Origin: Herbiconiux moechotypicola
GTDB taxonomy: Bacteria; Actinomycetota; Actinomycetes; Actinomycetales; Microbacteriaceae
Length of the DNA: 64,000 nucleotides
Direction: 5' to 3'
Assembly (NCBI RefSeq): GCF_024979255.1
Contig: NZ_JANLCN010000013.1
Coordinates: forward strand, 62,001 to 126,000
Shown: positions 1 through 21,921 of the stretch, piece after piece
Position numbering within the stretch: the first letter of the stretch is position 1
Layout of the letters: every line of letters begins with the position of its first letter
Made by a program: the position numbers and the translations under genes
Notes under the pieces: generated by a model
What the model saw: only the letters and a program-made list of their open reading frames with translations
What the model was told of the DNA's origin: nothing
Databases searched by the model: none

Positions 1-50
1 CCTAGCAGGGCTTCGAAGGAGGGCGCACCGGAGGAGCGGGGCGAGGTCAT
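1..50 (-). CDS. Start of an unidentified gene running off the left edge
   Basis: An ATG at the complement of positions 48-50 opens a frame that stays open to the window edge (about 16 codons, beginning MTSPRSSGAPSFEALL). It starts 42 bases downstream of the M29-like gene on the same strand and could be the next gene of that operon. The visible part is too short to identify, and the preceding ribosome-binding site (ACAGGA) is only fair. Confidence 0.35.
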   Translation of the reverse strand, partial: MTSPRSSGAPSFEALL

Positions 51-92
51 GGGGATCCTGTCTGTGGGGTCGGGATGCGCGGCGAGGGCGGC

Positions 93-1073
93 TTACGCGG
101 CGACGAGCTCGCCGCCGACGATGCGCGGCACCCCGTCGAGGTAGACGGTCGCGTCGCGCATGACGCAGTCGAGGTGGGCGGGGGCGGCGACCGTGCCGCC
201 GTAGGCGATCGAGTTGCCGAAGGCGATGTGGGCGCTGCCCTTGGTGGACTCGGTCTCCATCGGCACGCCGCACACCGAGCCCTGCGGGTTGAGACCGACC
301 GCCACCTCGGCGAGGTTGGCCATGCGCGGGTCGCCGACGCGGGCGATCATCTCGGTGAGCCGCTCGCCCTCCACCCCGTCGAGCCCGATGAGCTGTCCGT
401 CGCGGATCTCGAGCTCGACCGGAGAGGAGACCGGGCCGCGGCCCATGAAGAGGAAGTCGCCGTCGATCACCACGACGCCGTTCGACGAGCCCTCCACCGG
501 AGCGGTGCCCGACTCGACGTCGGGCGGCGCCATGTAGTCGCCCGGGTTGCGGGCCACGCCGGTGAGTGCGCGCCCTTTTCGGCCGGCGACCGAGCCGCGC
601 AGGTCGGTGCCGCCGGGGGTCGTGATGCGGTACTCCTCCGCCTCCTCCCAGGCGCGGGCGAGGGCGAGGGTGGTGGCGACGAGGCCGTCGAAGTCGACGT
701 CGAGCGGTCCGCCGAGGCGGAAGGTGCCGGCCTCGACCGCGGGCATGGCGAGGTAGCGGCGGCCCGCGGCGGTCGCCGCCTGGCGCGCCCGGCTGGAGCC
801 GATGAAGGCGCTCGTGAGCTCGATGCCCGCGTCGGCCGCGAGCAGGGCCTCGGCCACCGCGGCCGGCGGCTCGGTGCCGGGCACCGCGAAGGCCGGCACC
901 TCGACGAGCACGGGCACGGCCCGGCGCGCCTCGAGACCGGCGGCGAGCGCGGTGAGCACGGCCGCATCCGTTCCCGGGTCGCGCAGCAGCGCCACCCTCT
1001 CCCCCGCGCGCACGCCGAGGCAGGTGTCGAGCACCCGCGCGACGGTGGCCTCGGGTATGGCGCACACGGTCAC
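93..1073 (-). CDS. M29 aminopeptidase / NicX-type metalloenzyme
   Basis: A 326-residue protein of the M29 fold, which includes aminopeptidase T and the Fe(II) ring-cleaving 2,5-dihydroxypyridine dioxygenase NicX. The C-terminal metal region is visible: METE near residue 272, GSAHIAFGN near 280 and the HxD motif (HLDCVM) near 300. At about 326 residues it is closer in length to NicX than to the roughly 400-residue peptidases. Its start overlaps the stop of the upstream flavin monooxygenase gene (ATGA), so the two are translationally coupled. In this catabolic operon a ring- or amide-cleaving role is more likely than peptide turnover; that is inference. Confidence 0.7.
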   Translation of the reverse strand: MTVCAIPEATVARVLDTCLGVRAGERVALLRDPGTDAAVLTALAAGLEARRAVPVLVEVPAFAVPGTEPPAAVAEALLAADAGIELTSAFIGSSRARQAATAAGRRYLAMPAVEAGTFRLGGPLDVDFDGLVATTLALARAWEEAEEYRITTPGGTDLRGSVAGRKGRALTGVARNPGDYMAPPDVESGTAPVEGSSNGVVVIDGDFLFMGRGPVSSPVELEIRDGQLIGLDGVEGERLTEMIARVGDPRMANLAEVAVGLNPQGSVCGVPMETESTKGSAHIAFGNSIAYGGTVAAPAHLDCVMRDATVYLDGVPRIVGGELVAA

Positions 1074-2065
1074 GCCCCGCTCACGATGCGCGCGTAGGCC
1101 TCGACCGTGGCGAACCGGCTCTCCACGGTGCCGCCGATGGGGAAGACGGTCATCGAGTCGATGCCGAGCGACTCCAGCGTGGCGATGTGCTCGCGCACCG
1201 TCGCGTCTCCGCCGGCCAGAGCCATGCGGTAGACGAAGTCGTCGGGGAGCAGCTTCGCGGCCTCCTCGGCCTCCTGGAACTCACCGCCCGCGTAGAGCGC
1301 ACGCACCCGCTCGATGAGCTCGGGCGAGAGCCCGGCGAGCTCGCAGTACATGGGTGCCGTCTGGGGGAACCACGCGGCGATGGTGCGCGCCGAGGCGAGC
1401 GCCGCCTCCTCATCGTCGGAGATCTGCCCGTAGGCGAACACCGTGATCTGCGGGCGCTCGGAGCGGCCGGCCATGTCGACCCCGCGGTCGATGTGGTCGA
1501 GCGCGTACTGCAGGCCGTCGGGGTGCAGGCCCGCGAGCAGGATGACTCCGTCGGCCACGCGGCCGGCCAGCTCGAGCGTCTTCGGCCCCGACGCGGAGAT
1601 GTAGACGGGGATGTCGGGGCGCTGCGGAGGGAAGCGCATGTGGGCGTCGTCGAGCTCGAAGCCGCGGGCCTGCCAGGTGACGCTCGCGCCCGTCCAGAGT
1701 CGCCGGGCGGCCTCGATGGAGTCCTCCAGCAGCGCCAGGCGGGCCGGCTTGTAGCCGAGCGCCTCGAGCGGTCGGTCTCCCGCGCCGATGCCGTAGATCG
1801 CGCGCCCGCCCGAGATCTCGTCGATGGTCGAGATGGCCACGGCACCGAGCGCCGGGTGGCGGGTGACCGGGTTCGTCACCGCGGTGCCGAGGGTCATGCG
1901 CGAGGTGCGCAGGGCCGCGATCGTGAGATAGGAGTAGGAGTAGCGCGAGTGCAGCGACGAGTCGGTGAGCCAGAGCTCGTCGAGCCCCCACTCCTCGCTC
2001 TTCTGCACGATGTCGCCGAAGGTGTCGGGGTCGTAGGCCGGCTGGAGGGCGACGCCTGATCTCAT
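1070..2065 (-). CDS. Luciferase-like flavin/F420 oxidoreductase (Mer-type)
   Basis: A 331-residue luciferase-like (LLM) TIM-barrel protein that most resembles the methylenetetrahydromethanopterin reductase / F420-type branch. Typical pieces are GGRAIYGIGAGDRPLEALGY (about 75-95) and PVYISASGPKTLELAGR (about 130). The ATG at 2065 lies 5 nt after the stop of the upstream M20 gene. It is the middle gene of the operon M20 deacylase, LLM enzyme, M29 enzyme. Substrate and cofactor (FMN or F420) cannot be read from the sequence. The context suggests oxidation or reduction of a heterocycle or its ring-opened product. Confidence 0.75.
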   Translation of the reverse strand: MRSGVALQPAYDPDTFGDIVQKSEEWGLDELWLTDSSLHSRYSYSYLTIAALRTSRMTLGTAVTNPVTRHPALGAVAISTIDEISGGRAIYGIGAGDRPLEALGYKPARLALLEDSIEAARRLWTGASVTWQARGFELDDAHMRFPPQRPDIPVYISASGPKTLELAGRVADGVILLAGLHPDGLQYALDHIDRGVDMAGRSERPQITVFAYGQISDDEEAALASARTIAAWFPQTAPMYCELAGLSPELIERVRALYAGGEFQEAEEAAKLLPDDFVYRMALAGGDATVREHIATLESLGIDSMTVFPIGGTVESRFATVEAYARIVSGA

Positions 2066-2070
2066 GCCGC

Positions 2071-3300
2071 TCAGTCTTCCAGCAGCGCGTAGGCGGCGAA
2101 CGCGGCGTAGACCTTGGTGGCCTCGACGATGTCGTCGATGGACAGGTGCTCGTCGGGGCAGTACACCGGCTCGCCGCCCGGCCCGAAGATGATGGTCGGG
2201 ATGCGGTCGCCGAAGCTCGCGGTGTCGCCCAGCCAGCCCGCCACCTGCAGCTCGGGCTCCGCGTCGCGCACCGAGCGCACGGCGCGGATCATGAGCTGCG
2301 TCACCTCGGCCTCGGGGGCGGCGAGGTAGCCGGGCTTCACGTCGGCCAGCACGACCTCGGCCTCGAAGCGCGGCTCGCGCTCCTTCGCCTTGGCCAGGCA
2401 CCGCTCGACCTCGGCGCGCACCTCCTCGAGCGTGACACCGGGCTGCGGACGGCAGTCCACGCGGATGACGCACTCGTCGGGGATCATCGAGGGGCCTCCC
2501 GGCGGCAGTCCACCGTAGACGCGCCCGGGCGACATGAAGGTCTCGGGGCCGAACAGGCTCGTCACCCACTCCTCGAGCTGCGGCTCGAGCTTCGAGGCGT
2601 CGAGCTCGATGATGGCGTGCGCGGCGAGCATGTTGGCGTTCACCGCGAGCGGCTTATGGCAGGTGTGGGCTGAGATGCCTCGCACGTGCACGTCGTAGTA
2701 GTAGCGGCCGCGGTGGCCGAGGAAGATCTCGTTGTCGCTGAGCTCGCCGAGCACGGCGAGGTCGGCGGTGTACTCCTCGAAATACTTGATGGAGCCGAGC
2801 TGGTCGCCCATGTGGTCGGAGACGGCGGCCATGGCGAGCCGGCCCTTGAGCGGCAGGCCCGAAGCGCGCAGCGCCTCCATGGCGATGATCTGGCACACCA
2901 GCGCGGCCTTCATGTCCATGATGCCGTGGCCGTAGACGGCGCCGTCGATGATCTCGCCCGAGAACGGCTCGGTGAGCTTCCAGCCGTGCGAGACCGGCTT
3001 GGTATCCATGTGCCCCGTGAACACGACGGTCTTGCCGGCCTCGGGGCCGCCGCCGAAGTCGAGCAGGCCGATCGCGTTGGGGCGGCCCGGCAGCACGTCC
3101 TGGGTGCGGGCGTCGTCGAAGCCCGATCCCGCCATCACGCCGGCGAGGAACTCGGCGAGGGGCCCCTCCTCGCCGAGGATGCTCGGGATGCGGCAGACGT
3201 CCTGCACGAGCGTGACGAGCCGGTCGACGTCGATGTGCGCCGCGACGACCTCGGCGATGTCGACATCGCTCGTGACACCGCTCTCGGTGAGGTCAGGCAT
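2071..3300 (-). CDS. M20-family deacylase (ArgE/DapE/YlmB-like)
   Basis: A 409-residue M20 metallohydrolase, first gene of its operon. Seen: GHMDTKPV (about 96), GIMDMKA (about 127), GELSDNEIFLGHRG (about 188) and the late PDEHLSIDD histidine (about 386). The usual Glu-Glu pair carrying the general base and a metal ligand is absent: the position reads SDHMGDQLGS. Bacillus YlmB, the deformylase of N-formyl-aminopyrimidine derived from degraded thiamine, belongs to this family, and thiXYZ- and tenA-like genes are in the same island. A role in removing a formyl or acetyl group from a pyrimidine breakdown product is therefore plausible. Its ATG follows an AGAGAGGGG ribosome-binding site. Confidence 0.75.
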   Translation of the reverse strand: MPDLTESGVTSDVDIAEVVAAHIDVDRLVTLVQDVCRIPSILGEEGPLAEFLAGVMAGSGFDDARTQDVLPGRPNAIGLLDFGGGPEAGKTVVFTGHMDTKPVSHGWKLTEPFSGEIIDGAVYGHGIMDMKAALVCQIIAMEALRASGLPLKGRLAMAAVSDHMGDQLGSIKYFEEYTADLAVLGELSDNEIFLGHRGRYYYDVHVRGISAHTCHKPLAVNANMLAAHAIIELDASKLEPQLEEWVTSLFGPETFMSPGRVYGGLPPGGPSMIPDECVIRVDCRPQPGVTLEEVRAEVERCLAKAKEREPRFEAEVVLADVKPGYLAAPEAEVTQLMIRAVRSVRDAEPELQVAGWLGDTASFGDRIPTIIFGPGGEPVYCPDEHLSIDDIVEATKVYAAFAAYALLED

Positions 3301-3319: not shown

Positions 3320-3365
3320 TTAGATCTGATGTATTAGATCTTATCTTTGACGAGAGGGCGCACAA
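3320..3365 (-). promoter_or_regulatory. Promoter and AGATCT operator of the M20-LLM-M29 operon
   Basis: Read on the minus strand: -35 TTGTGC (3360-3365), 16-nt spacer, -10 TAAGAT (3338-3343). TTAGATCT occurs twice on the plus strand (3320-3327 and 3334-3341), over and just after the -10. This placement suits a repressor, and the same core recurs at the other promoters of the island. Confidence 0.6.
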
Positions 3366-3384: not shown

Positions 3385-3402
3385 CGTAAACACCTTGTTA
3401 CG
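3385..3402. promoter_or_regulatory. 18-bp inverted-repeat element, copy 1
   Basis: CGTAAACACCTTGTTACG: CGTAA and TTACG arms around 8 nt. It is 15/18 identical to the element at 4174-4191. Its centre is about 31 nt upstream of the -35 of the M20 operon, a position typical of an activator. It overlaps the stop codon of the GntR gene. Confidence 0.45.
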
Positions 3403-4066
3403 GCTCGAGCGCGAGCCGCTCGATCTGACGGTCGCGCACGGAGGCGATGTGCGCCCGCATGGCCCGGGCGGCCTCGGCACCGTCGTGGTCGCGGATCGCC
3501 TCGACGATCGCGCGGTGGAACTCCAGCGACTCGGCGAAGCGCTCGGCCGTCGCTCCGAGCGAACCGATGAGCCTGAGGTGCAGGCTCAGGCGCTCGAACA
3601 CCCCTGCCAGCAGTTTGTTGTCGAGCATCGCGAAGAGGATGTCGTCGAAGGCATCCAGGCCCGCGGCTGCGGCCGCCAAGTCGTCGGCCTCGAGCGCCAC
3701 GGCCGTCTCGGCGAGATTGCGCTCGAGCGAGGCGATCACGTCAGGGTCGCCCGTGAGCGCGGCGCGGCGCACGCACTCGGTCTCGAGGATGCCGCGGGCG
3801 TCGAAGAGCTCGCGCACGTCGTCGGCGGTGTGCACCCGCACCCGGGCGCCGCGATACGGGGCGATCTCGACCAGCCCGTCCTGCTCGAGCCGCACCAGCG
3901 CCTCGCGGATGGGGGTCTTGCTCACCCCGAAGAGCTCGGAGAGGGCGACCTCCCGCAGTGACTCCCCCGGGGTGAAGGTGTGGTCGACGATGCGGTCGCG
4001 CAGACGCAGGTAGACGACGTCCTTCACCTGCAGCGGCTCGAGCGAATCCCTGATCGCAGTCGACAC
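3398..4066 (-). CDS. GntR-family (FCD) transcriptional regulator 1
   Basis: A 222-residue regulator: N-terminal GntR winged helix (about 10-70, with ELFGVSKTPIREALVRLEQD) and a C-terminal all-helical FCD ligand domain whose metal-site histidines lie in SLHLRLI, EFHRAIV and MRAHIAS. The GTG at 4066 was chosen because GGAAG lies 7 nt upstream and because it aligns with the paralogue at 5826-6488. An in-frame ATG at 4114 would add 16 residues. It is divergent from the aldehyde dehydrogenase gene, and its own promoter carries the shared AGATCT element, so autoregulation and control of the island are likely. Confidence 0.88.
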   Translation of the reverse strand: MSTAIRDSLEPLQVKDVVYLRLRDRIVDHTFTPGESLREVALSELFGVSKTPIREALVRLEQDGLVEIAPYRGARVRVHTADDVRELFDARGILETECVRRAALTGDPDVIASLERNLAETAVALEADDLAAAAAGLDAFDDILFAMLDNKLLAGVFERLSLHLRLIGSLGATAERFAESLEFHRAIVEAIRDHDGAEAARAMRAHIASVRDRQIERLALEP

Positions 4067-4117
4067 GTGCACTCTTCCATCCCCGGCGTCTCCGACTGGG
4101 GCGCCCTGAGGCAATAT

Positions 4118-4140
4118 GGTATCTCAGATCTTTTCCTGAA
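4118..4140 (-). promoter_or_regulatory. Operator at the GntR 1 promoter
   Basis: On the plus strand the site reads GGTATCTCAGATCTTTTCC. ATCTCAGATCTTTTCCTGAA matches 18 of 20 positions of the element upstream of the aldehyde dehydrogenase gene. On the minus strand a -10-like TACCAT overlaps it, which fits autorepression. Confidence 0.55.
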
Positions 4141-4205: not shown

Positions 4206-4262
4206 TTGCCGCCCGAAGACCTCTCCTTTAGCCTCAGATGAGATATCAGATCTTTTCTTGAA
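4206..4262 (+). promoter_or_regulatory. Promoter and operator of the aldehyde dehydrogenase operon
   Basis: -35 TTGCCG (4206-4211), 17-nt spacer, -10 TAGCCT (4229-4234), then the operator-like GAGATATCAGATCTTTTC (4240-4257) over the transcription start region. The -10 is identical to that of the amidohydrolase operon at 17.2 kb. Confidence 0.6.
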
Positions 4263-4274: not shown

Positions 4275-5771
4275 ATGGCGACGCCCAGCGACAGCATCCT
4301 TCCCGAGGTCCGGCGCTTCCTCGACCGCGAGCACGGCCTCATCATCGGGGGCGTGCAGCGGCCGGCGAGCGACGGGGGCACGATCACCGTGCTCGACCCC
4401 GCGACAGGCGCGGTGCTCACGTCGGTGGCCGCGGGCACGGCCGCCGACGTCGACGACGCCGTGGCCGCCGCGCGCGCCGCGCTCCCGGTGTGGAACGCCC
4501 TCTCCCCCTCCCGCCGCGGCGAGCTGCTGTGGCGCCTGGGCGAGGAGATCGAGCGTCGCGCCGACGAGTTCGGCCAGCTCGAGACCCTCGACAACGGCAA
4601 GCCCACCGGGGAGTCGACCGTGCTCGACGTGCCCTTGGCCGGCTCGCTGTTCAAGTACTACGCGGGCTGGACCACGAAGATCGAGGGCGAGACCATGGCG
4701 CCGGCCTCGGGCATGCCGTTCCACGTCTACACGCTGCGCGAACCCGTCGGCGTGGTGGGCGCCATCATCCCGTGGAACTTCCCGCTGCTCATGTGCGGTT
4801 ACAAGCTCGGCCCCGCGCTCGCGGCCGGCAACACGCTGGTGCTGAAGCCCGCCGAGCAGACCCCGCTGTCGGCCCTCCGCCTGGTCGAGCTCATGCTCGA
4901 GGTCGGCTTCCCGCCCGGAGTGGTCAACGTCGTCACCGGCGACGGCCCGGGCGCGGGCGCCCCGCTGTCGCGGCACCTCGACGTGGACAAGATCACCTTC
5001 ACCGGCGAGAACGCCACCGGCCGCAAGATCCTCGAGGCCTCGGGCGGCAACATGAAGCGGCTCTCGCTCGAGCTCGGCGGCAAGTCGCCCTCGCTGGTGT
5101 TCCAGGACGCCGACCTCGAGAAGGCGATCGAGGGCACCTTCGGCGCGGTCTACTTCAACCAGGGTCAGTGCTGCATCGCCGGCGCCCGGGTGTTCGTGCA
5201 CGACTCGATCTACGACGCGTTCGTCGACGGCCTCGCCGCGAAGGTGGCGGCCGTGCAGCTGGGCAACGGCCTTGCCGCCGGCACGACCATGGGGCCGCTC
5301 GTGAGCGCGGAGCAGCGCGACCGGGTCGACTCGCTCATCGCCTCCGGGGTCGCCCAGGGCGCCACGGCCGTGGTCGGCGGCTCACCGGTCGACGACCCGT
5401 CCCTGGCGGGCGGGTACTTCGTGCGGCCCACGCTCTTCACCGACGTCTCCCCCGAGATGGACATCATGCGCAAGGAGATCTTCGGGCCCGTGGGCATGGT
5501 CGGCCGATTCAGCACCGAGGAGGAGGCGCTGGCAAAGGGCAACGACACCGCGTTCGGCCTCGCCTCAGGCGTGTGGACGCGCGACGTGGGCCGTGCGCAC
5601 CGGGTCTCGGCGGGCCTGCACGCCGGCGTCGTGTGGGTGAACACCTACGGCATGTTCGACGTGGCGATCCCCTACGGCGGGTTCAAGGCCTCCGGCTACG
5701 GCAAGGAGCTGGGCCGCGAGGCTCTGGAGCCGTACCTGCAGACGAAGACGGTGTGGATCGACCTCTCCTGA
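4275..5771 (+). CDS. NAD(P)-dependent aldehyde dehydrogenase
   Basis: A 498-residue ALDH superfamily enzyme that oxidises an aldehyde to a carboxylate with NAD(P)+. Seen: IIPWNFPLLM (about 165), the catalytic glutamate in LELGGKSPS (about 266), the catalytic cysteine in FNQGQCCIAG (about 298) and EIFGPVGMV (about 400). The cofactor-loop motif is FTGEN instead of the usual FTGS. AGGAG precedes the ATG. It is probably co-transcribed with GntR 2 54 nt downstream. In the inferred pathway it would act after the GMC oxidoreductase, for example on an aldehyde made from a hydroxymethyl pyrimidine. Confidence 0.92.
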   Translation: MATPSDSILPEVRRFLDREHGLIIGGVQRPASDGGTITVLDPATGAVLTSVAAGTAADVDDAVAAARAALPVWNALSPSRRGELLWRLGEEIERRADEFGQLETLDNGKPTGESTVLDVPLAGSLFKYYAGWTTKIEGETMAPASGMPFHVYTLREPVGVVGAIIPWNFPLLMCGYKLGPALAAGNTLVLKPAEQTPLSALRLVELMLEVGFPPGVVNVVTGDGPGAGAPLSRHLDVDKITFTGENATGRKILEASGGNMKRLSLELGGKSPSLVFQDADLEKAIEGTFGAVYFNQGQCCIAGARVFVHDSIYDAFVDGLAAKVAAVQLGNGLAAGTTMGPLVSAEQRDRVDSLIASGVAQGATAVVGGSPVDDPSLAGGYFVRPTLFTDVSPEMDIMRKEIFGPVGMVGRFSTEEEALAKGNDTAFGLASGVWTRDVGRAHRVSAGLHAGVVWVNTYGMFDVAIPYGGFKASGYGKELGREALEPYLQTKTVWIDLS

Positions 5772-5825
5772 GTCGCGGGCGTGTCAGGATGGTGCCCACA
5801 CCTTCTTGACCTCACGGGAGCAGCC

Positions 5826-6488
5826 ATGTCTCTGAGCGGCGACGAGCGCGTCTCGCCCCTGCAGGTGAAGGACCGCGTCTACGAGCGACTGCGCGAGGCC
5901 CTCATCGATCAGGTCTTCGCGCCGGGCGAGCCCCTGCGCGAAGCCACCCTCACCGAGCTCTACGGCGTGAGCAAGACCCCCATCCGCGAGGCGCTCGTGC
6001 GACTGCAGCAGGACGGGCTGGTCGAGATCGCCGCCTACCGTGGTGCACGCGCGAGCTCGTACACCGAGGCCGACCTCGCCGAGATCTTCGAGGCCCGCGA
6101 GATCCTCGAGTGCGAGTGCGTGCGGCGCGCGGCGGCAGCTCCCGGTCCTGAGATCGGCGAGCGGCTGGCAGCCACGGTCGACTCCGCCGAGCGCGCGATC
6201 GCTGCGGGCGATCTCGCAGCGGGGGCGGCGAGCCTCGACGAGTTCGACGAGGTGCTGTTCGAGCAGCTCAAGAACGCTCTGCTCGACGAGATCCGTCAGC
6301 GGCTCAGCATGCACCTGCGGCGGGTCGGCCGGGTGAACCTCACGCCCGAATCGGTGGCACGGTCGTTGGCCGAGCACCGCACCATCATCGCCGCGGTGGT
6401 CGCCCACGATCCCGACGGCGCGGAGGAGGCGCTCCGCGCGCACCTGCGCTCGGTGCAGCGCCAGCAGATCGAGGCCCTCGGCATCTGA
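5826..6488 (+). CDS. GntR-family (FCD) transcriptional regulator 2
   Basis: A 220-residue paralogue of the regulator at 3398-4066. The winged helix is nearly identical in the recognition region (YGVSKTPIREALVRLQQDG). The FCD histidines are in SMHLRRVG, EHRTIIAAV and LRAHLRSV. The ATG at 5826 follows GGGAGCAGCC; an upstream in-frame start at 5781 has no good site. No AGATCT element lies in the 54 nt before it, so it is probably expressed from the aldehyde dehydrogenase promoter. Two close paralogues in one cluster suggest two related inducers, or an activator/repressor pair. Confidence 0.88.
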   Translation: MSLSGDERVSPLQVKDRVYERLREALIDQVFAPGEPLREATLTELYGVSKTPIREALVRLQQDGLVEIAAYRGARASSYTEADLAEIFEAREILECECVRRAAAAPGPEIGERLAATVDSAERAIAAGDLAAGAASLDEFDEVLFEQLKNALLDEIRQRLSMHLRRVGRVNLTPESVARSLAEHRTIIAAVVAHDPDGAEEALRAHLRSVQRQQIEALGI

Positions 6489-8069: not shown

Positions 8070-8138
8070 TGAGCCATCCTCACCCGAGCAAACCTCATCG
8101 CGCAAGAGCGGGGGTGAGGCCTGTGGAAGACTTCTAGC

Positions 8139-14676: not shown

Positions 14677-15720
14677 TCAGTCGGTGAGGTACTCGTTGGT
14701 GTAGAACGACGACCAGTCCGGCGCCTCGGTGAGGGTGTTGCCGTCGACGTCGGCGAGCAGGCCCGACTCGAGGTAGAACTCGCCGAGGCCGGCCCACTGC
14801 TCGTCGGTCATGAGGCCGAACTCGCCGTTCTCGTCGAGCATGAAGTCGCTCGAGAGCAGCTCCTGGCTCTTGGTCACGAGCTCCTCCTCGGTGAGCACGT
14901 CGGGGTTGGCCTCCATGAGGATGGCGGCCGAGCCGTCGGGGTCGGCGATGGCGTCCTCGTAGCCCTTGGCGAGCGCCTGGGTGAAGGCCTTGGTGGTCTC
15001 GGGGTTCTCGCCCATCCAGGTCTTGTTGCCGAGCACGAGCAGGCCGTAGTTGTCGGGGAAGCCGTAGTCGGTGAACTGGAAGTACTTCATCGGGGTGCCG
15101 TTGAGCTCCGCCTCGATGCCCTCCCAGGTCTCGAACGGGATGGTGAAGTCGACGTCTCCGGAGTAGAGCGCCTCGTAGGCGCTCGTGCCGAGGGTGACGT
15201 TCTCGAACTCGCCGGTGCCGCCGTCGGCCTTGATGACCGCCTGGAGCGTCGGCACCTCGGAGGGGCTGCCGAAGCCGGCGTAGGTGAGGCCGTCGAGGTC
15301 TTTCGGCGACTGGATGCTGTCGTCGTCGGCGCGCATGCCGATGGCGGTGACCCAGGTCTGGATGGGGGCCATGATCGCCTGCACGTCGGCGCCGGCGGCC
15401 ATCGAGAAGGTGGTGACGTCTTGGAAGCCGATGCCGAAGTCGGCGGCGCCCGCGTCGATCAGCGTCTCGGGGTAGGAGCCGTTGTAGGGCAGGATCTCCA
15501 CGTCCAGCCCGGCCTCCTCGAAGTAGCCCTTCTCGAGGGCGACGTAGAGGCCGGTGTGGTTGGTGTTGGGCGTCCAGTCGAGGGCGAAGGTCACGTGGGT
15601 GAGCTCGCCGTCGGCCGAGGCCGTCGACTCGGTGGCGGAGCCGCCGCTGGAGCAGGCGGCGAGCAGGCCGGCGGTGGCGACGAGCGCCACTCCGGTCGCG
15701 AGGTGTCGCGTCTTCATCAT
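14677..15720 (-). CDS. ThiY-like (NMT1/THI5) substrate-binding lipoprotein
   Basis: A 347-residue extracytoplasmic binding protein. The signal peptide ends in LAAC (Cys about 23) followed by SSGGSATEST, so it is a lipoprotein. The mature N-terminus FALDWTPNTNHTGLYVALEK is the hallmark of ThiY, which binds N-formyl-4-amino-5-aminomethyl-2-methylpyrimidine from degraded thiamine. GAADFGIGFQDVTTF (about 88) is the usual pocket segment. GAGGA lies 7 nt before the ATG at 15720. The ligand is inferred from family and from the two TenA genes. Confidence 0.9.
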   Translation of the reverse strand: MMKTRHLATGVALVATAGLLAACSSGGSATESTASADGELTHVTFALDWTPNTNHTGLYVALEKGYFEEAGLDVEILPYNGSYPETLIDAGAADFGIGFQDVTTFSMAAGADVQAIMAPIQTWVTAIGMRADDDSIQSPKDLDGLTYAGFGSPSEVPTLQAVIKADGGTGEFENVTLGTSAYEALYSGDVDFTIPFETWEGIEAELNGTPMKYFQFTDYGFPDNYGLLVLGNKTWMGENPETTKAFTQALAKGYEDAIADPDGSAAILMEANPDVLTEEELVTKSQELLSSDFMLDENGEFGLMTDEQWAGLGEFYLESGLLADVDGNTLTEAPDWSSFYTNEYLTD

Positions 15721-15824: not shown

Positions 15825-17150
15825 TCACGCCGGGCGGGTGACGACCTCCATGCGGGCGACGGTGCGGCGGAAGGCCTCGTTGGCCTTCCGCACGATCTCC
15901 GACTCGTCGACGGTGGTGAGCTCGCGGCCGCGCATGAGCACCTTGCCGTCGACGATGGTGGTGTCGACCATGCCGCCGTTGGCCGCGAAGACGAGGTGGC
16001 TGGTCATGTGCACCGGGGTGTCGCGCAGCATCGGGGTGAACTCGACCGAGTTCGTCTCCACCAGGATGACGTCGGCCTTCGCCCCCGCCTCCAGCCGGCC
16101 GGTGTCGTGGCCCAGAGCGCGGGCGCCGTTGTTCGTGGCCATGCGCAGCACGTTCGCCGCCGGCATGAGCGAGGCGTCCTGCCGCTGGGCGCGGTGCACC
16201 AGCGAGGAGTACTTCATGACCTCGAACATGTCGGCGGAGTTGTTGCACTCCACGGCGTCGTGCCCGAGGCCCACGTTGATTCCGGCGGCGAGCATCTCGG
16301 GCACCCGGGCGATGCCGTTGCCGAGCTTGGCGTTCGACGAGGGGTTGTGCGAGATGTGGGTGCCGGTCTCGGCCATCATGCGGATCTCGTCGTCGTTGAG
16401 GTGCACGCAGTGCGCGGCGACCACGTCGGGGCCGAGGAAGCCGGTCTCGTAAGCGAGCTCGGTGGGCCGCTTGCCGAAGCGCTCCAGGCTGTTCTCCACC
16501 TCCGACATCGACTCGTTGAGGTGGATGTGGATGCCGATGCCGAGCTCGTCGGCGAGCGCCCGGGTGTCGCGCAGCAGCTCGGGCGAGGCCAGCGGCAGCC
16601 ACTCGATGCCGAAGCGCACCTGGATGAGTCCGTTGTTCGCGCCGTGGCTGCGGTGGAAGGCGTCGACGTTGTCCTGCAGCGTGTCGAGGTTGTACTCGTC
16701 GAGCGCGATGTCGTTGGAGAGCACCGCGCGGATGCCCACGACCTCGGCGGCGTCGGCGAGCGCGTCGAGCTTGCGGTACATGTCGTTGACCGTGGTGCAG
16801 CCCGACTTGATCGACTCGGTGTAGCTCGCCATCGCCGCCCAGTAGGCGGCGTCGTAGTCGAGGGCCCGGATGAGCGGGTACCAGCATTCGTCGAGGTACT
16901 CCCAGAGCGGGAGGTGGTCGTTGTAGCCTTTGCCGAGCGCGGTGTGGAAGTGCAGGTCGACGAGGCCGGGCATCACGATCTTGTCGGTCGCGTCGATCAC
17001 TTCGTCCCCCTCGCCGGCCGCCGGGGCCTCGGCGTCGGGGCCGATCCAGGCGATCCGGTCGCCGTCGATGACGAGCGCGCCCTCCTCGAGGTAGGTCCCG
17101 GCCTCGTCGAGAGTGAGGACCATGCCGTGGCGGATGATGATGCGGGACAT
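15825..17150 (-). CDS. ATZ/TRZ-type amidohydrolase (probable aminopyrimidine deaminase)
   Basis: A 441-residue metal-dependent hydrolase of the chlorohydrolase / S-adenosylhomocysteine deaminase / cytosine deaminase group. Metal ligands: HFH in VDLHFHTALG (about 66), H in IGIHIHLNES (about 203), H in AAHCVHL (about 243) and the aspartate in LGHDAVECNN (about 293). These enzymes replace an exocyclic ring amino group with oxygen. It is first in the importer operon, 104 nt before the binding-protein gene. The attractive role is deamination of the 4-amino group of the imported pyrimidine, which would give a RutA-type 4-oxo substrate; that is inference. GAAAGG precedes the ATG. Confidence 0.88.
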   Translation of the reverse strand: MSRIIIRHGMVLTLDEAGTYLEEGALVIDGDRIAWIGPDAEAPAAGEGDEVIDATDKIVMPGLVDLHFHTALGKGYNDHLPLWEYLDECWYPLIRALDYDAAYWAAMASYTESIKSGCTTVNDMYRKLDALADAAEVVGIRAVLSNDIALDEYNLDTLQDNVDAFHRSHGANNGLIQVRFGIEWLPLASPELLRDTRALADELGIGIHIHLNESMSEVENSLERFGKRPTELAYETGFLGPDVVAAHCVHLNDDEIRMMAETGTHISHNPSSNAKLGNGIARVPEMLAAGINVGLGHDAVECNNSADMFEVMKYSSLVHRAQRQDASLMPAANVLRMATNNGARALGHDTGRLEAGAKADVILVETNSVEFTPMLRDTPVHMTSHLVFAANGGMVDTTIVDGKVLMRGRELTTVDESEIVRKANEAFRRTVARMEVVTRPA

Positions 17151-17201: not shown

Positions 17202-17252
17202 TCAGATCTAAGATCTTATTTAGAGGCTAAGGCCCGCGCAAGGCCCTTTCAA
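17202..17252 (-). promoter_or_regulatory. Promoter and operator of the importer operon
   Basis: On the minus strand: -35 TTGAAA (17247-17252), 17-nt spacer, -10 TAGCCT (17224-17229), then the operator on the plus strand TTCAGATCTAAGATCTTATT (17201-17220) over the start region. No THI-box motifs are visible between here and the ATG. Confidence 0.65.
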
Positions 17253-17302: not shown

Positions 17303-18679
17303 TCAGAGACGCTCGTCGTCGATCACGATGCCGCCGCCGAGCCAGCCCACCGCCATCGTCACGAGGTTGGGGCCCGCGTCGTGGATGCGCGGGAACACCG
17401 ACGCGTCGATGATCTTGAGCCCTCGGGTGCCGAGCACGTTCAGCCTCCGGTCGACCACGCGGTCGATGCCGCACGACGCTACGGGGTGGTTGTAGGTCTC
17501 GACCCGCTCGCGCAGGCGTGGCACCAGGTCGGAGGTCTTCCACCAGGCGTCGGCGGGCACCGTCACGATGCCCTCGTCGGCCATCGCGTCGATCACCTCG
17601 GCGGTCTTCCGCACCGCCACGGCCATGCGCTCGGCGTCGCTGTCGGTGGAGAGGTGGCCGAGCCGGATGCGGCCGCGGTCGTCGTCGCCGCGGGTGATGC
17701 TGCCCCGCGCATCCGGCTGCATGAGCGCCACCGAGACGCTGTAGCTCGCCCGCGGCGCGGTGCGGTCGTAGAGCCAGGTGGAGAAGGGGAACACCTGGAA
17801 CTCGTCGGCGGGGTCGTCGGCGACGCCGGCGCGCAGCAGCGAGCCGCTCACCGGGCGGGCGAACACGTCGGCCTCGTCGCGCGCCAGCACGTTCATCATG
17901 AGCCAGGGGTGGTCTTGCAGGCCCTGACCGATGCCCGGGAGGTCGAAGCCCGAGCGCCAGAGCAGCTCGGGGGTGCTGTAGGCGCCGCCGGCCACGATGA
18001 CGAGGTCGGCCGCGAGGGTCTCCACCCCGCCCGGACCCTCGATCTCGACGCCCACGGCGCGGTCGCCCTCCATGAGCACACGCCGCACCAAGGTACGGTC
18101 TCGGAGCGTCACGCGGGAGCGCACGAGCGGGGCGACGGCGGCGAGCGCGCCCCAGCGACCCTCGTCGACGCGGTTGGTCGGCCACGGGCCGACGCCCTGG
18201 GTGCCCGGCGCGTTGTGGTCGGCGCAGTCGGGGTGCCCCGCCGCGCGGGAGGCCGCGGCGAACGCCTCGTCGAGCGGGCCCTGGCTCAGACGGGTGACCC
18301 GGATGGGCCCCGAGTCACCGTGGTAGGGCCGGTGGCCGAACTGCTCGTCGGTCTCGATGGCGCGGAGGCCGGGCAGCAGGTCGTCCCACTGCCAGCCCTC
18401 GCCCCAGGCTTCGAAGCCACTCGGCTGTCCGCGCGAGCCGGCGGCCGCGTTCACGCTCGACCCGCCGCCGAGCACCTTGCCGCGCACGAGGTGGTTGCCC
18501 GAGTCGAGGTCGGTGTAGTCCCAGTCGGCCTCGGGGAAGTGGTGCTCGTACAAGAAGTTGTGCGGAACCGGGTCTCCGGGGTCGGCACCTGCCTCGATCA
18601 GCGTCACCTCGGCGAGGTCGGCCAGCCGGTGCGCGGCGAGCAGGCCGCCGTTGCCGCCGCCCGCGATCACGATCTTCAT
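17303..18679 (-). CDS. GMC-family FAD oxidoreductase
   Basis: A 458-residue glucose-methanol-choline oxidoreductase: N-terminal FAD motif VIAGGGNGGLLAAHRLA (about 4), GKVLGGGSSVNAAAG (about 68), AGGAYSTPELLWRSG (about 228), a catalytic-region histidine in ETYNHPVASCG (about 398) and GPNLVTMAVG near the C-terminus. It is shorter than many GMC enzymes (500-600). Such enzymes oxidise primary alcohols to aldehydes. Its start overlaps the amidohydrolase stop (ATGA). It is the last gene of its operon. A hydroxymethyl-pyrimidine or thiazole-ethanol dehydrogenase role is plausible, feeding the aldehyde dehydrogenase. Confidence 0.88.
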   Translation of the reverse strand: MKIVIAGGGNGGLLAAHRLADLAEVTLIEAGADPGDPVPHNFLYEHHFPEADWDYTDLDSGNHLVRGKVLGGGSSVNAAAGSRGQPSGFEAWGEGWQWDDLLPGLRAIETDEQFGHRPYHGDSGPIRVTRLSQGPLDEAFAAASRAAGHPDCADHNAPGTQGVGPWPTNRVDEGRWGALAAVAPLVRSRVTLRDRTLVRRVLMEGDRAVGVEIEGPGGVETLAADLVIVAGGAYSTPELLWRSGFDLPGIGQGLQDHPWLMMNVLARDEADVFARPVSGSLLRAGVADDPADEFQVFPFSTWLYDRTAPRASYSVSVALMQPDARGSITRGDDDRGRIRLGHLSTDSDAERMAVAVRKTAEVIDAMADEGIVTVPADAWWKTSDLVPRLRERVETYNHPVASCGIDRVVDRRLNVLGTRGLKIIDASVFPRIHDAGPNLVTMAVGWLGGGIVIDDERL

Positions 18680-19728
18680 GCCGCGGCCTTCGCATTCGTC
18701 AAGCCGTCTTCGGGGTCGAGCCCGATCAGCTTCGCGAAGTTGCCGCCCATCACCCCGTCGAGCTTGGACTGCGGGAGGGGGTCGAGCCCTAGCGCGGCCG
18801 CCTCCTCGTTCACCGTGAGCAGCTTCTCACGCAGCGCGATCGGGTCGTAGAGGAAGCCGGGGAAGTCGGTGCCGAACATGATCTTCTCCAGCGGCACGAA
18901 GAAGGGCTCCGCACGGTGCAGGTAGAGGAAGAGATCGCGCCGCGTGACGGTGGCGATGTGGTAGCTGATCTCGGTGTAGAAGTTCGGGTGCTTGGTGAGC
19001 ATGAACATCGCCTCGTCGATCCACGGGATGCCGCAGTGCGCGATGATGACCTTGAGGTCGCGGAAGTTGCGGCCGATGTCGTCGAGCAGCGCCGGGCGGC
19101 CGTACTCCATCTTCGCGTCGATGCGGGTGGATCCCGCCTGGTGGATCATGACCGGGATGCCGAGGTCGCGCGCCGCGGCGAGCACCGGAAAGGCGAGGTC
19201 ACGGTCGACCGGCGACCAGTGCTGGTACATCGGGTAGAGCTTCACGCCCTTCAGCCCGTCCTCCTGCACGGCGCGGGCCAGCTCGTCGACGGCGGCCTTC
19301 ACACCCCGGTAGGCGGGGTTCACCGAGGCGAAGCCGATGATCTTCTCGGGTTCGGCCCGCACGCATCCGGCGATGTACTCGTTGCAGCGCTCGGGGTGCT
19401 GCTCGCCCGCCACGTCGGTCTGACCGAGCACGTCGACCGTGCCCATGAGGCGGCCCTCGAGGTACTGCGGGCTCACGGCCAGCGCCACGATCTTGTCGAA
19501 ACCCGGATGCGCGGCGACGCTCTCGTGCGGGCCCACCACGCCGAAGCCGTCCTTGCCCTCGGCGGCCTCGATCTCCTCCCACTCGTGGTCGACCGGGCAG
19601 CGGTGGCTCGGGAGCTTGCCCTCGGCGCGGTAGATGGTGAGCGAGCCCTCGCGGCCGTAGCGCTTGGTGAAGGCCGCGTCGGTGCCCATCGAGAGGATGT
19701 GGGTGTGGGCGTCGATCTGCAGGGTCAT
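18676..19728 (-). CDS. Amidohydrolase-related (ACMSD-like) hydrolase or decarboxylase
   Basis: A 350-residue PF04909-type metal enzyme. The HxH motif is at the N-terminus (QIDAHTHILSMG, about 4-10), followed by PVMIHQAGS (about 192), VIIAHCGIPW (about 222) and the aspartate in MFGTDFPGF (about 290). The family contains hydrolases and non-oxidative decarboxylases of aromatic or pyrimidine carboxylates (ACMSD, isoorotate decarboxylase). If the dehydrogenases make a pyrimidine-5-carboxylate, this protein could remove it; that is inference. The ATG at 19728 follows the TenA 2 stop by 16 nt; longer frames upstream overlap TenA 2. Confidence 0.85.
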   Translation of the reverse strand: MTLQIDAHTHILSMGTDAAFTKRYGREGSLTIYRAEGKLPSHRCPVDHEWEEIEAAEGKDGFGVVGPHESVAAHPGFDKIVALAVSPQYLEGRLMGTVDVLGQTDVAGEQHPERCNEYIAGCVRAEPEKIIGFASVNPAYRGVKAAVDELARAVQEDGLKGVKLYPMYQHWSPVDRDLAFPVLAAARDLGIPVMIHQAGSTRIDAKMEYGRPALLDDIGRNFRDLKVIIAHCGIPWIDEAMFMLTKHPNFYTEISYHIATVTRRDLFLYLHRAEPFFVPLEKIMFGTDFPGFLYDPIALREKLLTVNEEAAALGLDPLPQSKLDGVMGGNFAKLIGLDPEDGLTNAKAAA

Positions 19729-19744: not shown

Positions 19745-20455
19745 CTAGCTGAGGTCTGACCAGGTGGCGCCGGAGAAGCCCTGATCCCAGAACTGCCGCT
19801 CCAGGCGGCACCCGGTGAGGAAGATCTCGGCGGCGCGGCGGCGCGCGGCCTCCGGCATGCCGGCGAGCTCACGGTCGAACGACTCGCGGAGGGTGGTCAC
19901 GACGGCGGCGTAGTCGCCGCTGGCGAAGAAGGCGAGCCAGCCGCTGTAGACCGGATGCGCGACCGCGCCGTCGACGAGGCCGCGGGCGATCTCGCCGTAG
20001 CTCCACGCGCAGGGCAGCAGGGCGGCCGCGATGTCGTTCGCGTCGCCGTTCGCCGCGATCGAGAGCAGCCACGAGGTGTAGGCCACGGTGGCGGGGGCGC
20101 GCACGCCGTCTCGGGCCGGAACCGCGCCCGCGAGCTCCACGACGCCCGCGAGCATCCGCTCGTTCTGCGGGATCTCGACCTTCACGATGTTGACGAGCGC
20201 GTCGGTGTACTCCTCCAGCACGACGCCGTTCTGGGACCGGGAGGCGCCCACTGCGAGCATGCGCGCGTAGTCGGGCAGGTAGAGCAGGTTCTGGGTGACG
20301 TAGTAGCGGAAGCGCTCGAGCGGGAGGGAGGCGTCGGCGAGGCCCGCGGGGAAGGGGTGCTCGAGGAGGGCCTGCCAGAGGGGGCCGACGGATGCGCGGA
20401 GCTCGGCGGTGGTCGCGGGGGCGGCGGCCGTGGGGGCGGCGGTGGGTGTGGTCAT
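19745..20455 (-). CDS. TenA-family protein 2
   Basis: A 236-residue TenA paralogue with an Ala/Thr/Pro-rich N-terminal extension of about 18 residues. The cysteine is in ALLPCAWSYGEI (about 146), the glutamate in CRLERQFWDQG (about 222), and RYYVTQNLLYLPDYARM (about 50) keeps the active-site tyrosines. Its ATG overlaps the stop of the NtaA-like gene (ATGA). It differs clearly from TenA 1, so a different substrate is likely, such as intact thiamine, an oxidised thiamine or another C-N bond. Confidence 0.9.
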   Translation of the reverse strand: MTTPTAAPTAAAPATTAELRASVGPLWQALLEHPFPAGLADASLPLERFRYYVTQNLLYLPDYARMLAVGASRSQNGVVLEEYTDALVNIVKVEIPQNERMLAGVVELAGAVPARDGVRAPATVAYTSWLLSIAANGDANDIAAALLPCAWSYGEIARGLVDGAVAHPVYSGWLAFFASGDYAAVVTTLRESFDRELAGMPEAARRRAAEIFLTGCRLERQFWDQGFSGATWSDLS

Positions 20456-21864
20456 GCGGCGGCCTCGGTCGGTGCGGCGGGAGAGTGGCGGCGCTGGCCG
20501 AAGTGGCCGCGCAGGGTGGAGCCCTCGTAGGCGGTGCGGAAGATGCCGCGCTCCTGCAGCTCGGGCACCACGAGGTCGACGAACTCGTCGATGCCCTCGG
20601 GCAGGGTGCTGGCGTTCACGTTGAAGCCGTCGGCCGCCCGGCCGTGGAACCAGGTCGCCAGCTCGTCGGCGATCATCGACGGCGTGCCGACGCTCGTGAA
20701 GTGGCCGCCGCCGGCCGAGATGCGCTCGAGCATGGTACCCACCGCCACCCGGCCGCCGTCGTCGGCGGTGGAGAGGGTCTGCATCATCACGTAGCGTCCC
20801 TTCGGGCCCGGGAAGTCGTCGAGCGGGGGCAGCTCGGGCATCGGGTCGTTCCGGTCGAGAGCCGAGCAGTCCATGCCGATGTAGCCGCCGAGCACCTCGA
20901 GCTGACGGTCGAGCGACTTGAGCGAGTCGAGGTGGCGCTTCTTGTCCTGCGCCTCGGCGAGCGTCTCGCCGATCACCGTCACGACACCGGGCAGCACCAC
21001 GATCTCGCTCTCGTCGCGGCCGTGGGCGCGGGTGCGGCGCTTGATGTCCTCGTAGTAGTCGCGGGCGTCGGCGAGGGTCGAGCCGATGCCGTAGATGGCC
21101 TCGGCGTAGCGCGCCGCGAGGTCGCGGCCCTGCGGCGAGGCGCCCGCCTGCACCAGCACCGGGCGGCCCTGCGGGCTCGCGGGGATGTTGAGCACCCCGT
21201 CCACGTCGAAGCTGTCGCCGTGGTGGCTCACCGGCCGGAACTCCCCGGGCGCGATGAAGTCGCCGCCCACCTTGTCCATGGCGAGCGCGGTGTGTGGGTA
21301 GCTCTGCCAGAGCTCGAGCATCACCTCGGCGAACTCCTGCGCGCGGGCGTAGCGGCCGGCCGGGGGCAGAAGGGCGGGCATCCCGTGCAGCGGCGCCTCG
21401 GCGTCGCTCTGCGAGGTGACGAGGTTCACCCCGGCGCGGCCTCGGCTGATGAGGTCGAGCGAGGCGAGCGAGCGCGCGGCGTTGAAGGGGTCGTGGAAGG
21501 AGGCGGAGAGGGTGCCGATGAGGCCGATGCGCTCGGTCTTGGCGGCGATGTAGGAGAGCAGGGTGAGCGGCTCGAACAGGGCGGCGGCGCTGTTGTGCAG
21601 GGCGCCGAAGGTGGCGAGGTGGGCGTCGGCGAGGAAGACGGCGTCGAACAGGCCGCGCTCGCAGCTCTGCGCGAAGCCCACGAAGGTGTCGGGGTCGAAG
21701 GCGCTCTCGCGGGTGGCCGACTCGCGCTGCCAGGCGGCGGGATGGTGACCGTAGAGGCGCATGAAGAGGTTGAGGTGCAGCATCCGCTCGCCGCTCGGCT
21801 GCTCGCCGCCTGCAGCCCGCGCGTCACGGGCGCCCCGCGCGTCGCGTGTGTCTCGCTCGACCAT
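20452..21864 (-). CDS. NtaA/SnaA/DszA-family flavin-dependent monooxygenase 2
   Basis: A 470-residue two-component monooxygenase subunit: LHLNLFMRLYGHHPAAWQ (about 29), RSLASLDLISRGRAGVNLV (about 131), GRPVLVQAGASPQGRDLAA (about 235) and the C-terminal GIFRTAYEGSTLRGHF. The first 27 residues are charged and poorly conserved; the true start may be the ATG at 21783, which gives 443 residues. It is first in the operon with TenA 2, the ACMSD-like enzyme and the GMC oxidoreductase, behind the AGATCT operator. It is only distantly similar to the enzyme at 9993-11309, so the two probably catalyse different steps. Confidence 0.85.
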   Translation of the reverse strand: MVERDTRDARGARDARAAGGEQPSGERMLHLNLFMRLYGHHPAAWQRESATRESAFDPDTFVGFAQSCERGLFDAVFLADAHLATFGALHNSAAALFEPLTLLSYIAAKTERIGLIGTLSASFHDPFNAARSLASLDLISRGRAGVNLVTSQSDAEAPLHGMPALLPPAGRYARAQEFAEVMLELWQSYPHTALAMDKVGGDFIAPGEFRPVSHHGDSFDVDGVLNIPASPQGRPVLVQAGASPQGRDLAARYAEAIYGIGSTLADARDYYEDIKRRTRAHGRDESEIVVLPGVVTVIGETLAEAQDKKRHLDSLKSLDRQLEVLGGYIGMDCSALDRNDPMPELPPLDDFPGPKGRYVMMQTLSTADDGGRVAVGTMLERISAGGGHFTSVGTPSMIADELATWFHGRAADGFNVNASTLPEGIDEFVDLVVPELQERGIFRTAYEGSTLRGHFGQRRHSPAAPTEAAA

Positions 21865-21894
21865 CTCGCACCGCCGTCCGTCTCGAGTGACCCT

Positions 21895-21921
21895 CTTGAG
21901 ATCTAGGATCTAATATCTCGA
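21895..21921 (-). promoter_or_regulatory. Operator of the monooxygenase 2 operon
   Basis: The plus strand reads CTTGAGATCTAGGATCTAAT and then ATCTCG. It aligns with the importer-operon site (TTTCAGATCTAAGATCTTAT). A minus-strand TGACAT with 17-nt spacing to TAGATC could be the promoter, but this is weak. Confidence 0.5.

Follow-up and report, generated by a model that had tools for sequence, protein, structure and literature searches.

What does a bacterium do with a ThiXYZ-type importer and two TenA proteins when the genes around them encode an oxidase, a deaminase and a decarboxylase-type enzyme? This question is raised by a 64,000-nucleotide stretch of the Herbiconiux moechotypicola genome, hereafter the window (RefSeq assembly GCF_024979255.1, contig NZ_JANLCN010000013.1, positions 62,001 to 126,000; C5:62001-126000 in our coordinates; genome size 4.28 Mb, 99.89% complete). 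Its first 21.9 kb hold an island of ∼19 co-regulated genes, the families of which were identified with Pfam and NCBIfam. We put at about 70% the probability that this island is an inducible regulon for the catabolism of thiamine and its pyrimidine breakdown products. An initial annotation had proposed an inducible role in carbon and nitrogen supply rather than in cofactor supply, which homology and gene context back, and all the enzyme families that it named are present by Pfam and NCBIfam, the M29/NicX-like protein by its match to NicX (E 4e-11). It did not remark on a split of the TenA proteins at an Asp/Asn position or on an operator shared between operons, did not include two genes that precede the window, and did not recognise the Mer-like enzyme as central to the island.

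Gene content of the island

Judged from their positions and strands, the genes fall into five operon-like groups, with GntR/FCD regulator 1 standing alone. Operon 1 consists of an M20 deacylase, a Mer-like enzyme, an M29-like protein, an aminotransferase and an amidase. The last two lie mostly outside the window, because the island extends beyond the window start into the aminotransferase (C5:60929-62050) and then the amidase (∼C5:59505-60851), and both are likewise found near island genes in the relatives G167 and G107. Operon 2 comprises an aldehyde dehydrogenase and GntR/FCD regulator 2, operon 3 NtaA/DmoA-like monooxygenase 1, operon 4 the ATZ/TRZ enzyme, ThiY, TenA1, ThiX, ThiZ and the RutA-like enzyme, and operon 5 NtaA/DmoA-like monooxygenase 2, TenA2, an ACMSD-superfamily enzyme and a GMC oxidoreductase. 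The features are as follows (window positions, strand, identity and evidence; FMN, flavin mononucleotide; ABC, ATP-binding cassette).

1-50, minus: class I/II aminotransferase, start only, the rest upstream of the window (Pfam; NCBIfam PRK06225 347.6 bits, cut-off 351)
93-1073, minus: M29/NicX-like metal protein, possible amide hydrolase (PDB 7cn3, NicX)
1070-2065, minus: Mer-like F420-type luciferase-fold enzyme, candidate ring reductase (best PDB match Mer 8qq8, 6.5e-44; start codon ATG)
2071-3300, minus: M20 deacylase of ArgE/DapE type (Pfam; TIGR01910 175 bits, cut-off 218)
3320-3343: operator-like site, two AGATCT palindromes, upstream of the M20 operon
3398-4114, minus: GntR/FCD regulator 1, start uncertain (Pfam)
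4124-4133: operator-like site upstream of the aldehyde dehydrogenase, distal copy, one mismatch
4239-4255: operator-like site upstream of the aldehyde dehydrogenase, proximal copy, one mismatch
4275-5771, plus: aldehyde dehydrogenase (Pfam; 77-81% identity in six island relatives)
5781-6488, plus: GntR/FCD regulator 2 (Pfam)
9953-9973: operator-like site upstream of NtaA/DmoA-like monooxygenase 1
9993-11309, plus: NtaA/DmoA-like FMN monooxygenase 1, possible thiazole branch (TIGR03860 413.8 bits, cut-off 279.7)
11352-12431, minus: RutA-like FMN monooxygenase (TIGR03612 238.2 bits; best PDB match RutA 6sgg, 2e-59)
12428-13243, minus: importer ABC ATPase, ThiZ-like (Pfam)
13233-14030, minus: importer ABC permease, ThiX-like (Pfam)
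14027-14671, minus: TenA1 with Asp44, Tyr163, Cys135 and Glu205 in Bacillus subtilis numbering (Pfam; active-site columns)
14677-15717, minus: ThiY/NMT1-like binding lipoprotein (Pfam; three-sequence profile against PDB)
15825-17150, minus: ATZ/TRZ aminohydrolase, candidate 4-amino deaminase (Pfam; invariant residues)
17202-17218: operator-like site, two overlapping AGATCT palindromes, upstream of the ATZ-ThiY-TenA1-ThiX-ThiZ-RutA operon
17303-18679, minus: GMC oxidoreductase, candidate hydroxymethyl-pyrimidine oxidase (Pfam; best PDB match pyridoxine 4-oxidase 4ha6, 3.6e-33)
18676-19728, minus: ACMSD-superfamily (Amidohydro_2) enzyme, candidate 5-carboxylate decarboxylase (Pfam; conserved residues)
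19745-20455, minus: TenA2 with Asn44 and Phe163, candidate hydrolase of the deaminated thiamine pyrimidine (Pfam; columns; tree)
20452-21864, minus: NtaA/DmoA-like FMN monooxygenase 2, possible thiazole branch (TIGR03860 453 bits, cut-off 279.7)
21897-21917: operator-like site upstream of the NtaA2-TenA2-ACMSD-GMC operon

Two other proteins are encoded inside the island (6510-8105 and 8139-9902, the second with a weak Lipocalin_9 match). Because their genes are absent between the same neighbours in G167, they are probably not part of the island unit.

Linkage of the island genes in other genomes

The same gene set, which the initial annotation had suggested looking for elsewhere, recurs in other genomes, mostly actinobacterial. 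When named genomes were searched with the ACMSD-type protein, 32 loci were found (28 titled actinobacterial, one Dormiibacterota), and G167 and G107, found via TenA2, bring the total to 34 loci or stretch pairs, all of which hold ACMSD, 32 by construction. The closest named isolate is Herbiconiux oxytropis (96% for the ACMSD-type protein, 97% for ClpC); other isolates that carry the island include Demequina salsinemoris NBRC 105323 and Nocardioides mangrovi. Near ACMSD lie ATZ in 23 of the 34 loci, a TenA2-type gene in 22, the Mer-like enzyme in 13, a permease in 13, the aldehyde dehydrogenase in 12, GMC in 10 and a zinc alcohol dehydrogenase in 10. These counts, made with identity thresholds that we set, are lower bounds, because contig ends cut many loci short. 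ACMSD stands alone in two loci (L034 and L040). TenA2 itself is rare: 7 of 297 genomes of the order have a match at E 1e-25, and the four best of these, including the window's own, adjoin other island genes, which the remaining three do not. No close TenA2 was found on plasmids, where 115 records match, all below 60% identity and, among the 15 matches listed, at most 35.4%. Gene order varies while content is kept (e.g. in G107), which argues for a shared function. Some clusters carry GMC and others the zinc alcohol dehydrogenase, an indication that they share a step in which an alcohol group is oxidised. The evidence for the existence of the island, and for its linkage as one genuine unit, is strong.

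Some wider clusters (Frankia-type, Acidimicrobiia and some others) combine ACMSD with a family III coenzyme A (CoA)-transferase (10 of 34 loci), a second M20 (9) and a B12-type mutase (6), and mostly also carry ATZ and the Mer-like enzyme. In L027, L028, L032, L038, L047 and L050, ACMSD occurs with both the family III CoA-transferase and the B12-type acyl-CoA mutase, with ATZ in five of the six and the Mer-like enzyme in five of the six. The mutase that was read, from L038, aligns best with 2-hydroxyisobutyryl-CoA mutase and shares an Arg with human methylmalonyl-CoA mutase at a position occupied by Gln in the hydroxyisobutyryl enzyme; we presume this Arg to have a functional role. These clusters may represent another ending of the same route, perhaps via a branched dicarboxylate. 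We did not adopt the mutase and CoA-transferase as part of the window's route, as neither is in the window stretches read. Another combination, an Asn44 TenA and ACMSD with hydantoinase/oxoprolinase A and B subunits, is seen in L035, L037, L039, L041 and L042 (including Acidimicrobiia).

A shared operator-like site upstream of five operons

An unbiased count of inverted repeats in 76 regions upstream of island genes, some of which overlap, placed first a G+C-rich repeat, CGACC-N-GGTCG (8 regions, mostly before operon-internal genes). The second, TGAGATCTCA (6 regions), and the third, GATCT-N-AGATC (5 regions), both contain AGATC; the maximum in 20 shuffles was 3. In the 64-kb window, THAGATC has 14 matches (9.0 expected; 9 of 100 shuffles as high), 12 of which are upstream of the five operons, with one (3422) inside the end of GntR/FCD regulator 1 and one (60333) outside the island. 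All 12 window matches of GATATYAGATC, allowing two mismatches, lie in the island (7.65 expected; 11 of 100 shuffles as high). TNAGATCTNA with one mismatch has 13 matches (6.6 expected; 3 of 100 shuffles as high), three of them off island promoters, at 19750 (the TenA2 end), 35048 and 60333. Because the total counts are unremarkable against shuffles, the evidence for an operator lies in placement and conservation. Genome-wide, the exact palindrome TNAGATCTNA occurs at five places, four of which precede the M20 and ATZ operons, and the backward control pattern at none; the fifth copy, at C1:983, has no island-type gene adjoining it, as judged by eye.

Conservation was assessed in 36 stretches from relatives (L011-L014 and L020-L051; 539 kb), with distances measured to the start of the protein match. 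These contain 31 exact copies of the palindrome, compared with 1.0 predicted from base composition, and 30 of the 31 are at most 250 bases upstream of an island-type gene, one of these being a 46% ATZ paralog in L011. The sites precede ATZ, the aldehyde dehydrogenase, M20 and NtaA/DmoA 2 and, in other genera, ThiY, GMC, ACMSD or the ATPase. The AGATCT operator thus characterises the window's own group, some Nocardioides and one Parafrankia locus, and is not a property of every ACMSD cluster. Within the window, the AGATCT-type site shared by the five island operons is strong evidence that they are one regulon.

Two TenA classes

Both TenA proteins, the only two found in the genome, pass PF03070 (TenA1 80.5 and TenA2 119.3 bits, cut-off 22) and miss the NCBIfam salvage_TenA model TIGR04306 (75 and 127.4 bits, cut-off 130). 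In B. subtilis numbering, TenA1 keeps Asp44, Tyr47, Tyr112, Cys135, Tyr139, Tyr163 and Glu205. TenA2 differs among those columns only by Asn44 and Phe163, and has the catalytic Cys135 and Glu205. This pattern, for which the evidence is strong, recurs: Asn44/Phe163 is found in the window's TenA2 and in one TenA of 19 of the 22 relatives with a TenA2-type gene, and all 21 Asn44 rows (20 distinct, L015 and L026 being one contig) also have Phe163. Asn44 occurs in none of 31 background TenAs, all of which have Asp44; these come from 29 new loci with ∼1.5-kb flanks and are the best-scoring ones found when 396 genomes of the phylum were searched with TenA2. On a tree of 73 TenAs, the distribution of Asn44 requires 2 changes, compared with a mean of 17.8 after shuffling; several of the inner branches of this tree are weakly supported. 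A close ATZ ortholog lies in the fetched stretch of 14 of the 20 distinct Asn44 TenAs.

The sole background TenA with Phe163, in L055 (G452), has Asp44 and is the only one with adjoining importer genes (ThiY- and ThiX-like). It is possibly an intermediate between the two TenA classes.

What Asn44 might read can be predicted from published residue contacts. An excerpt on Pyrococcus furiosus TenA describes hydrogen bonds between the equivalent Asp and the amino groups of the ligand, and states that D44A impairs B. subtilis TenA (PMC5623701). Thymidylate-synthase-type enzymes, according to another excerpt, read cytosine substrates with an Asp and uracil substrates with an Asn at the corresponding position (PMC5175136). 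On the strength of the Asp44-amino contact and this Asp/Asn rule, we predict that TenA2 acts on a 4-oxo pyrimidine, i.e. the 4-deaminated (oxythiamine-like) form made by the neighbouring deaminase. The presence of a close ATZ ortholog near most of the Asn44 TenAs agrees with this prediction.

Candidate enzymes of oxidation, deamination and decarboxylation

The solved proteins most closely related to GMC include pyridoxine 4-oxidase, alcohol oxidases and a probable dehydrogenase; the likeness to pyridoxine 4-oxidase would suit an enzyme that oxidises hydroxymethyl groups on heteroaromatic rings. In the ATZ/TRZ enzyme, H67, H69, H208, H210, E213, H247 and D298, which we take to be the metal and acid set of the deaminases, are invariant in 21 sequences. 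The ACMSD-type protein has a complete HxH/His/His/Asp set, presumably its metal ligands, with H196, H231 and D288 invariant and H8 and H10 nearly so in 28 sequences. Its PDB matches are weak and mixed (BB4693, oxalomesaconate hydratase and ACMSD), and it is likely to be a decarboxylase.

Candidate enzymes of ring opening

Which enzyme opens the pyrimidine ring is the step at which we depart from the initial annotation. Its route stands, by homology and context, for import, TenA hydrolysis, hydroxymethyl oxidation, 4-deamination and, possibly, ACMSD decarboxylation, but not for RutA as the ring opener. The reading in which the same substrate is opened mainly by RutA-type oxidation draws on the best solved relative of the RutA-like protein, which is RutA, and on the place of its gene as the last in the ATZ-ThiXYZ operon, behind an operator-like site. 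However, the protein misses the equivalog cut-off of TIGR03612 (498.3 bits), and among 14 island genomes (the window's own and 13 of the 34, out of 35 in all) it is found in 6 and has no match at E 1e-60 in 8, whereas the Mer-like gene is found in 14/14 (E 1e-80). We thus regard RutA-type oxidation as the main ring cleavage as unlikely, although a serious contender, and favour a reduction followed by hydrolysis by the amidase, the M29-like protein and M20, with RutA-type oxidation added in some strains. A second RutA-like gene, 39% identical to the island copy, lies elsewhere in the genome (G000:C41:193108-194130).

The Mer-like protein misses the NF002619 cut-off (193.4 bits, cut-off 276), and its best solved matches are F420-dependent Mer enzymes. 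The F420 gene cofD scores above its cut-off in the three island genomes tested (3/3). Riboflavin lyase (5w48) is also among the luciferase-fold PDB matches. The M29-like protein has no Pfam or NCBIfam match at 1e-3. In 8 sequences its E256, E273, E275, H282, H300 and D302 are invariant, and although it is homologous to the 2,5-dihydroxypyridine dioxygenase NicX, one NicX His, which we take to bind iron, aligns with a Glu. Its invariant E/E/H/H/D set looks more like an M29 peptidase site, as we understand that pattern, than like NicX. That the NtaA/DmoA-like enzymes act on the thiazole is a guess; neither is present in the 35 kb read around the G107 island genes. Our confidence in the ring-opening chemistry, the order of steps and the fate of the thiazole is weak.

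Elsewhere in the window, ARAGORN calls a tRNA-Thr on the minus strand (57218-57312) that has no Rfam support at the gathering score. It is probably false, because it lies inside a coding-looking open reading frame (56796-57884).

Probable substrate and purpose

A profile of three ThiY-like sequences matches 4nmy (2e-63), which we take to hold thiamine, the formylaminopyrimidine (FAMP)-binding ThiY 3ix1 (3e-38) and THI5 (5e-18) in the PDB. The ThiXYZ-type importer would, from these likenesses, bring in thiamine or its pyrimidine. Consistent with the absence of thiD, thiE and thiC noted in the initial annotation, no thiC and no thiE was found in the whole genome (controls match in 13 and 11 of 14 genomes; thiE was sought in the window's own genome only), and the host therefore probably cannot make the vitamin. 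For thiD the picture is mixed, since the best match to TIGR00097 elsewhere in the genome reaches 45 bits (cut-off 205) in a protein of a wider kinase family. Neither the window nor the loci of seven relatives yielded a riboswitch for thiamine pyrophosphate (TPP) that reaches the gathering score. The genome's one match (52.8 bits, under the gathering score of 54.3) lies just before an ABC_cobalt/ABC/CbiQ transporter of the YkoE-type energy-coupling factor kind, not before the island importer. Since thiC is uncommon in the order, thiE and regulation weigh more. With moderate confidence, we take the thiamine pyrimidine to be the substrate and catabolism the purpose.

Could the substrate be a different hydroxymethyl or aminomethyl heterocycle, such as an HMP-type (hydroxymethylpyrimidine-type) antibiotic, a 5-hydroxymethylcytosine-like base or vitamin B6, and could TenA have been co-opted to act on a similar bond? 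The kinship of GMC with pyridoxine 4-oxidase would fit, as would those wider clusters that have no TenA in the fetched stretch (L027, L028, L032 and L038). We nevertheless find this doubtful, as both TenAs keep Cys135, Tyr112, Tyr139 and Glu205 intact and the binding protein is closest to binders of the thiamine pyrimidine; for vitamin B6, moreover, the island's Pfam matches include no 3-hydroxypyridine ring-cleaving monooxygenase of the kind used in the B6 route. Detoxification of thiamine antivitamins such as oxythiamine, rather than food use, would agree with a 4-oxo substrate as suggested by Asn44 of TenA2, but is very improbable, because it needs neither a deaminase that makes the 4-oxo form nor a dedicated importer, nor genes for ring degradation and hydrolysis behind operators of the same type.

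Cofactor salvage of the Bacillus kind, in which HMP is regenerated by importer, M20 and TenA to feed thiamine synthesis, would use the parts of Bacillus FAMP salvage (a ThiY-like protein, M20 and TenA), and a Phos_pyr_kin-family kinase is present in the genome. The amidohydrolase YLMB is named in an excerpt of PMC5635689. We rejected salvage as the least probable reading of all, given a genome with no thiE, no thiC and only the 45-bit thiD match, an island with no TPP riboswitch (the one genomic match preceding a different importer), and a deaminase, GMC, aldehyde dehydrogenase and ACMSD that would, if acting as proposed, destroy HMP.

Several observations weigh against catabolism of the thiamine pyrimidine as set out here. 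All catalytic steps are read from homology, and TenA1, TenA2 and the RutA-like, Mer-like and M20 proteins all score under the curated NCBIfam cut-offs. The sole NCBIfam match of the binding protein is the sulfonate family SsuA (44 of 163 bits), and the best of GMC is the mycofactocin dehydrogenase MftG (214 of 387 bits). The three FMN monooxygenases need reduced FMN, and no flavin reductase was found among the island genes, to which the search was confined. Little weight can be given to the absence of thiC, as 249 of 294 sampled genomes of the order have no match either and 45 have one, and the protein matching TIGR00097 passes Pfam Phos_pyr_kin (59 bits), so that a wider-family kinase is present. 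For the TenA classes, the TenA2-type gene of Nocardioides L044-L046 is Asp44/Phe163, L048 and L049 have one of each kind, and 6 of the 20 Asn44 TenAs (L035, L037, L039, L041, L048 and L049) have, in the fetched stretch, only a more distant amidohydrolase. In T4 dCMP hydroxymethylase, according to an excerpt of PMC6400193, D179N cuts kcat up to ∼3600-fold; Asn44 could thus mean a different chemistry and not a clean amino-to-oxo switch. As for the operator, AGATC motifs across the window are only mildly above shuffles, the exact palindrome is present in 15 of the 36 relative stretches and absent from 21 (L026-L043 except L028, plus L014, L047, L050 and L051), and the usual FCD/GntR operator consensus TNGTNNNACNA was rejected with 3 matches against 4.3 expected.

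Proposed pathway

In the catabolic reading, the two FCD/GntR regulators would act via TNAGATCTNA-type operators before the five operons, and the ThiXYZ-type importer would take up thiamine or its pyrimidine. TenA1 would cut the bond at the pyrimidine C5-CH2 carbon while the 4-amino group is present. The ATZ/TRZ enzyme would swap the 4-amino group for oxygen, after which TenA2 would cut the deaminated form, a specificity suggested by its residues. GMC oxidase and aldehyde dehydrogenase would convert the freed hydroxymethyl group to a 5-carboxylate, which the ACMSD-family enzyme would probably remove. The Mer-like F420-type enzyme could then reduce the ring and the hydrolases (amidase, M29-like and M20) open it, yielding acetate, ammonia and beta-alanine or a 3-aminoacrylate-type C3 unit that the aminotransferase may pass on. 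In some strains the RutA-like monooxygenase might provide oxidative opening, instead or as well, and the NtaA/DmoA-like enzymes might cleave the thiazole, a weakly supported step. The end product would be carbon and nitrogen, not cofactor. The complete thiamine-consuming path, with ATZ/TRZ deamination first, a new 4-oxo-specific TenA class (Asn44/Phe163), F420 reduction and hydrolysis, in a host without thiC and thiE, is offered tentatively, at somewhat less than even odds.

Comparison with known systems

In the open-licence literature that we searched, thiamine is degraded by thiaminases, by food chemistry or by unspecified routes; we found no catabolic gene cluster there, which is no proof of novelty. 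An excerpt of one study attributes one form of B1 degradation in coastal water to an unclear pathway (PMC10881298). The island offers a gene set in named isolates, with which thiamine loss in soils and waters becomes testable by sequence, and a residue-level rule by which TenA proteins may be sorted into amino-reading and oxo-reading classes. It also cautions that tenA with thiXYZ is not automatically salvage.

The island resembles Bacillus FAMP/TenA salvage (ThiXYZ, YlmB and TenA) in its importer type, its M20-type hydrolase and a TenA with Cys135 and Glu205. It differs in having no TPP riboswitch and a host without thiE or thiC, in the added oxidase, deaminase and decarboxylase-type genes, and in its two TenAs, one of which is Asn44/Phe163. 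With the Rut pathway (RutA-G) it shares one RutA-like FMN monooxygenase; in contrast to that pathway, its Pfam matches include no RutB-G-type partners, and the RutA-like protein is under the model cut-off and not found in 8/14 island genomes.

For decades, soil bacteria have been known to oxidise thiamine to thiamine acetic acid by a thiamine dehydrogenase/oxidase (EC 1.1.3.23) with covalent flavin. The island would share with them the aerobic breakdown of thiamine, but the window's GMC belongs to another family. We know of no gene for this oxidase. In Nocardioides (L044, L045, L046, L048 and L049; e.g. L045:11776-13005, plus strand), an alditol-oxidase-like FAD protein adjoins a TenA and an aldehyde dehydrogenase. 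It matches FAD_binding_4 and ALO, has 2vfr (1e-38) as its best PDB match and keeps a GSGHS stretch, the His of which we take to carry the covalent flavin. It may be the EC 1.1.3.23 gene, for which it is perhaps a better candidate than the window's GMC.

Finally, bacterial clusters for the catabolism of vitamins B6 and B2 exist, and the island follows the same logic of a vitamin-eating cluster, with a GMC nearest to pyridoxine 4-oxidase and riboflavin lyase among its luciferase-fold matches. Unlike those clusters, it would be directed at a different ring and brings together TenA and a ThiY-type importer with the pair of ACMSD and ATZ enzymes.

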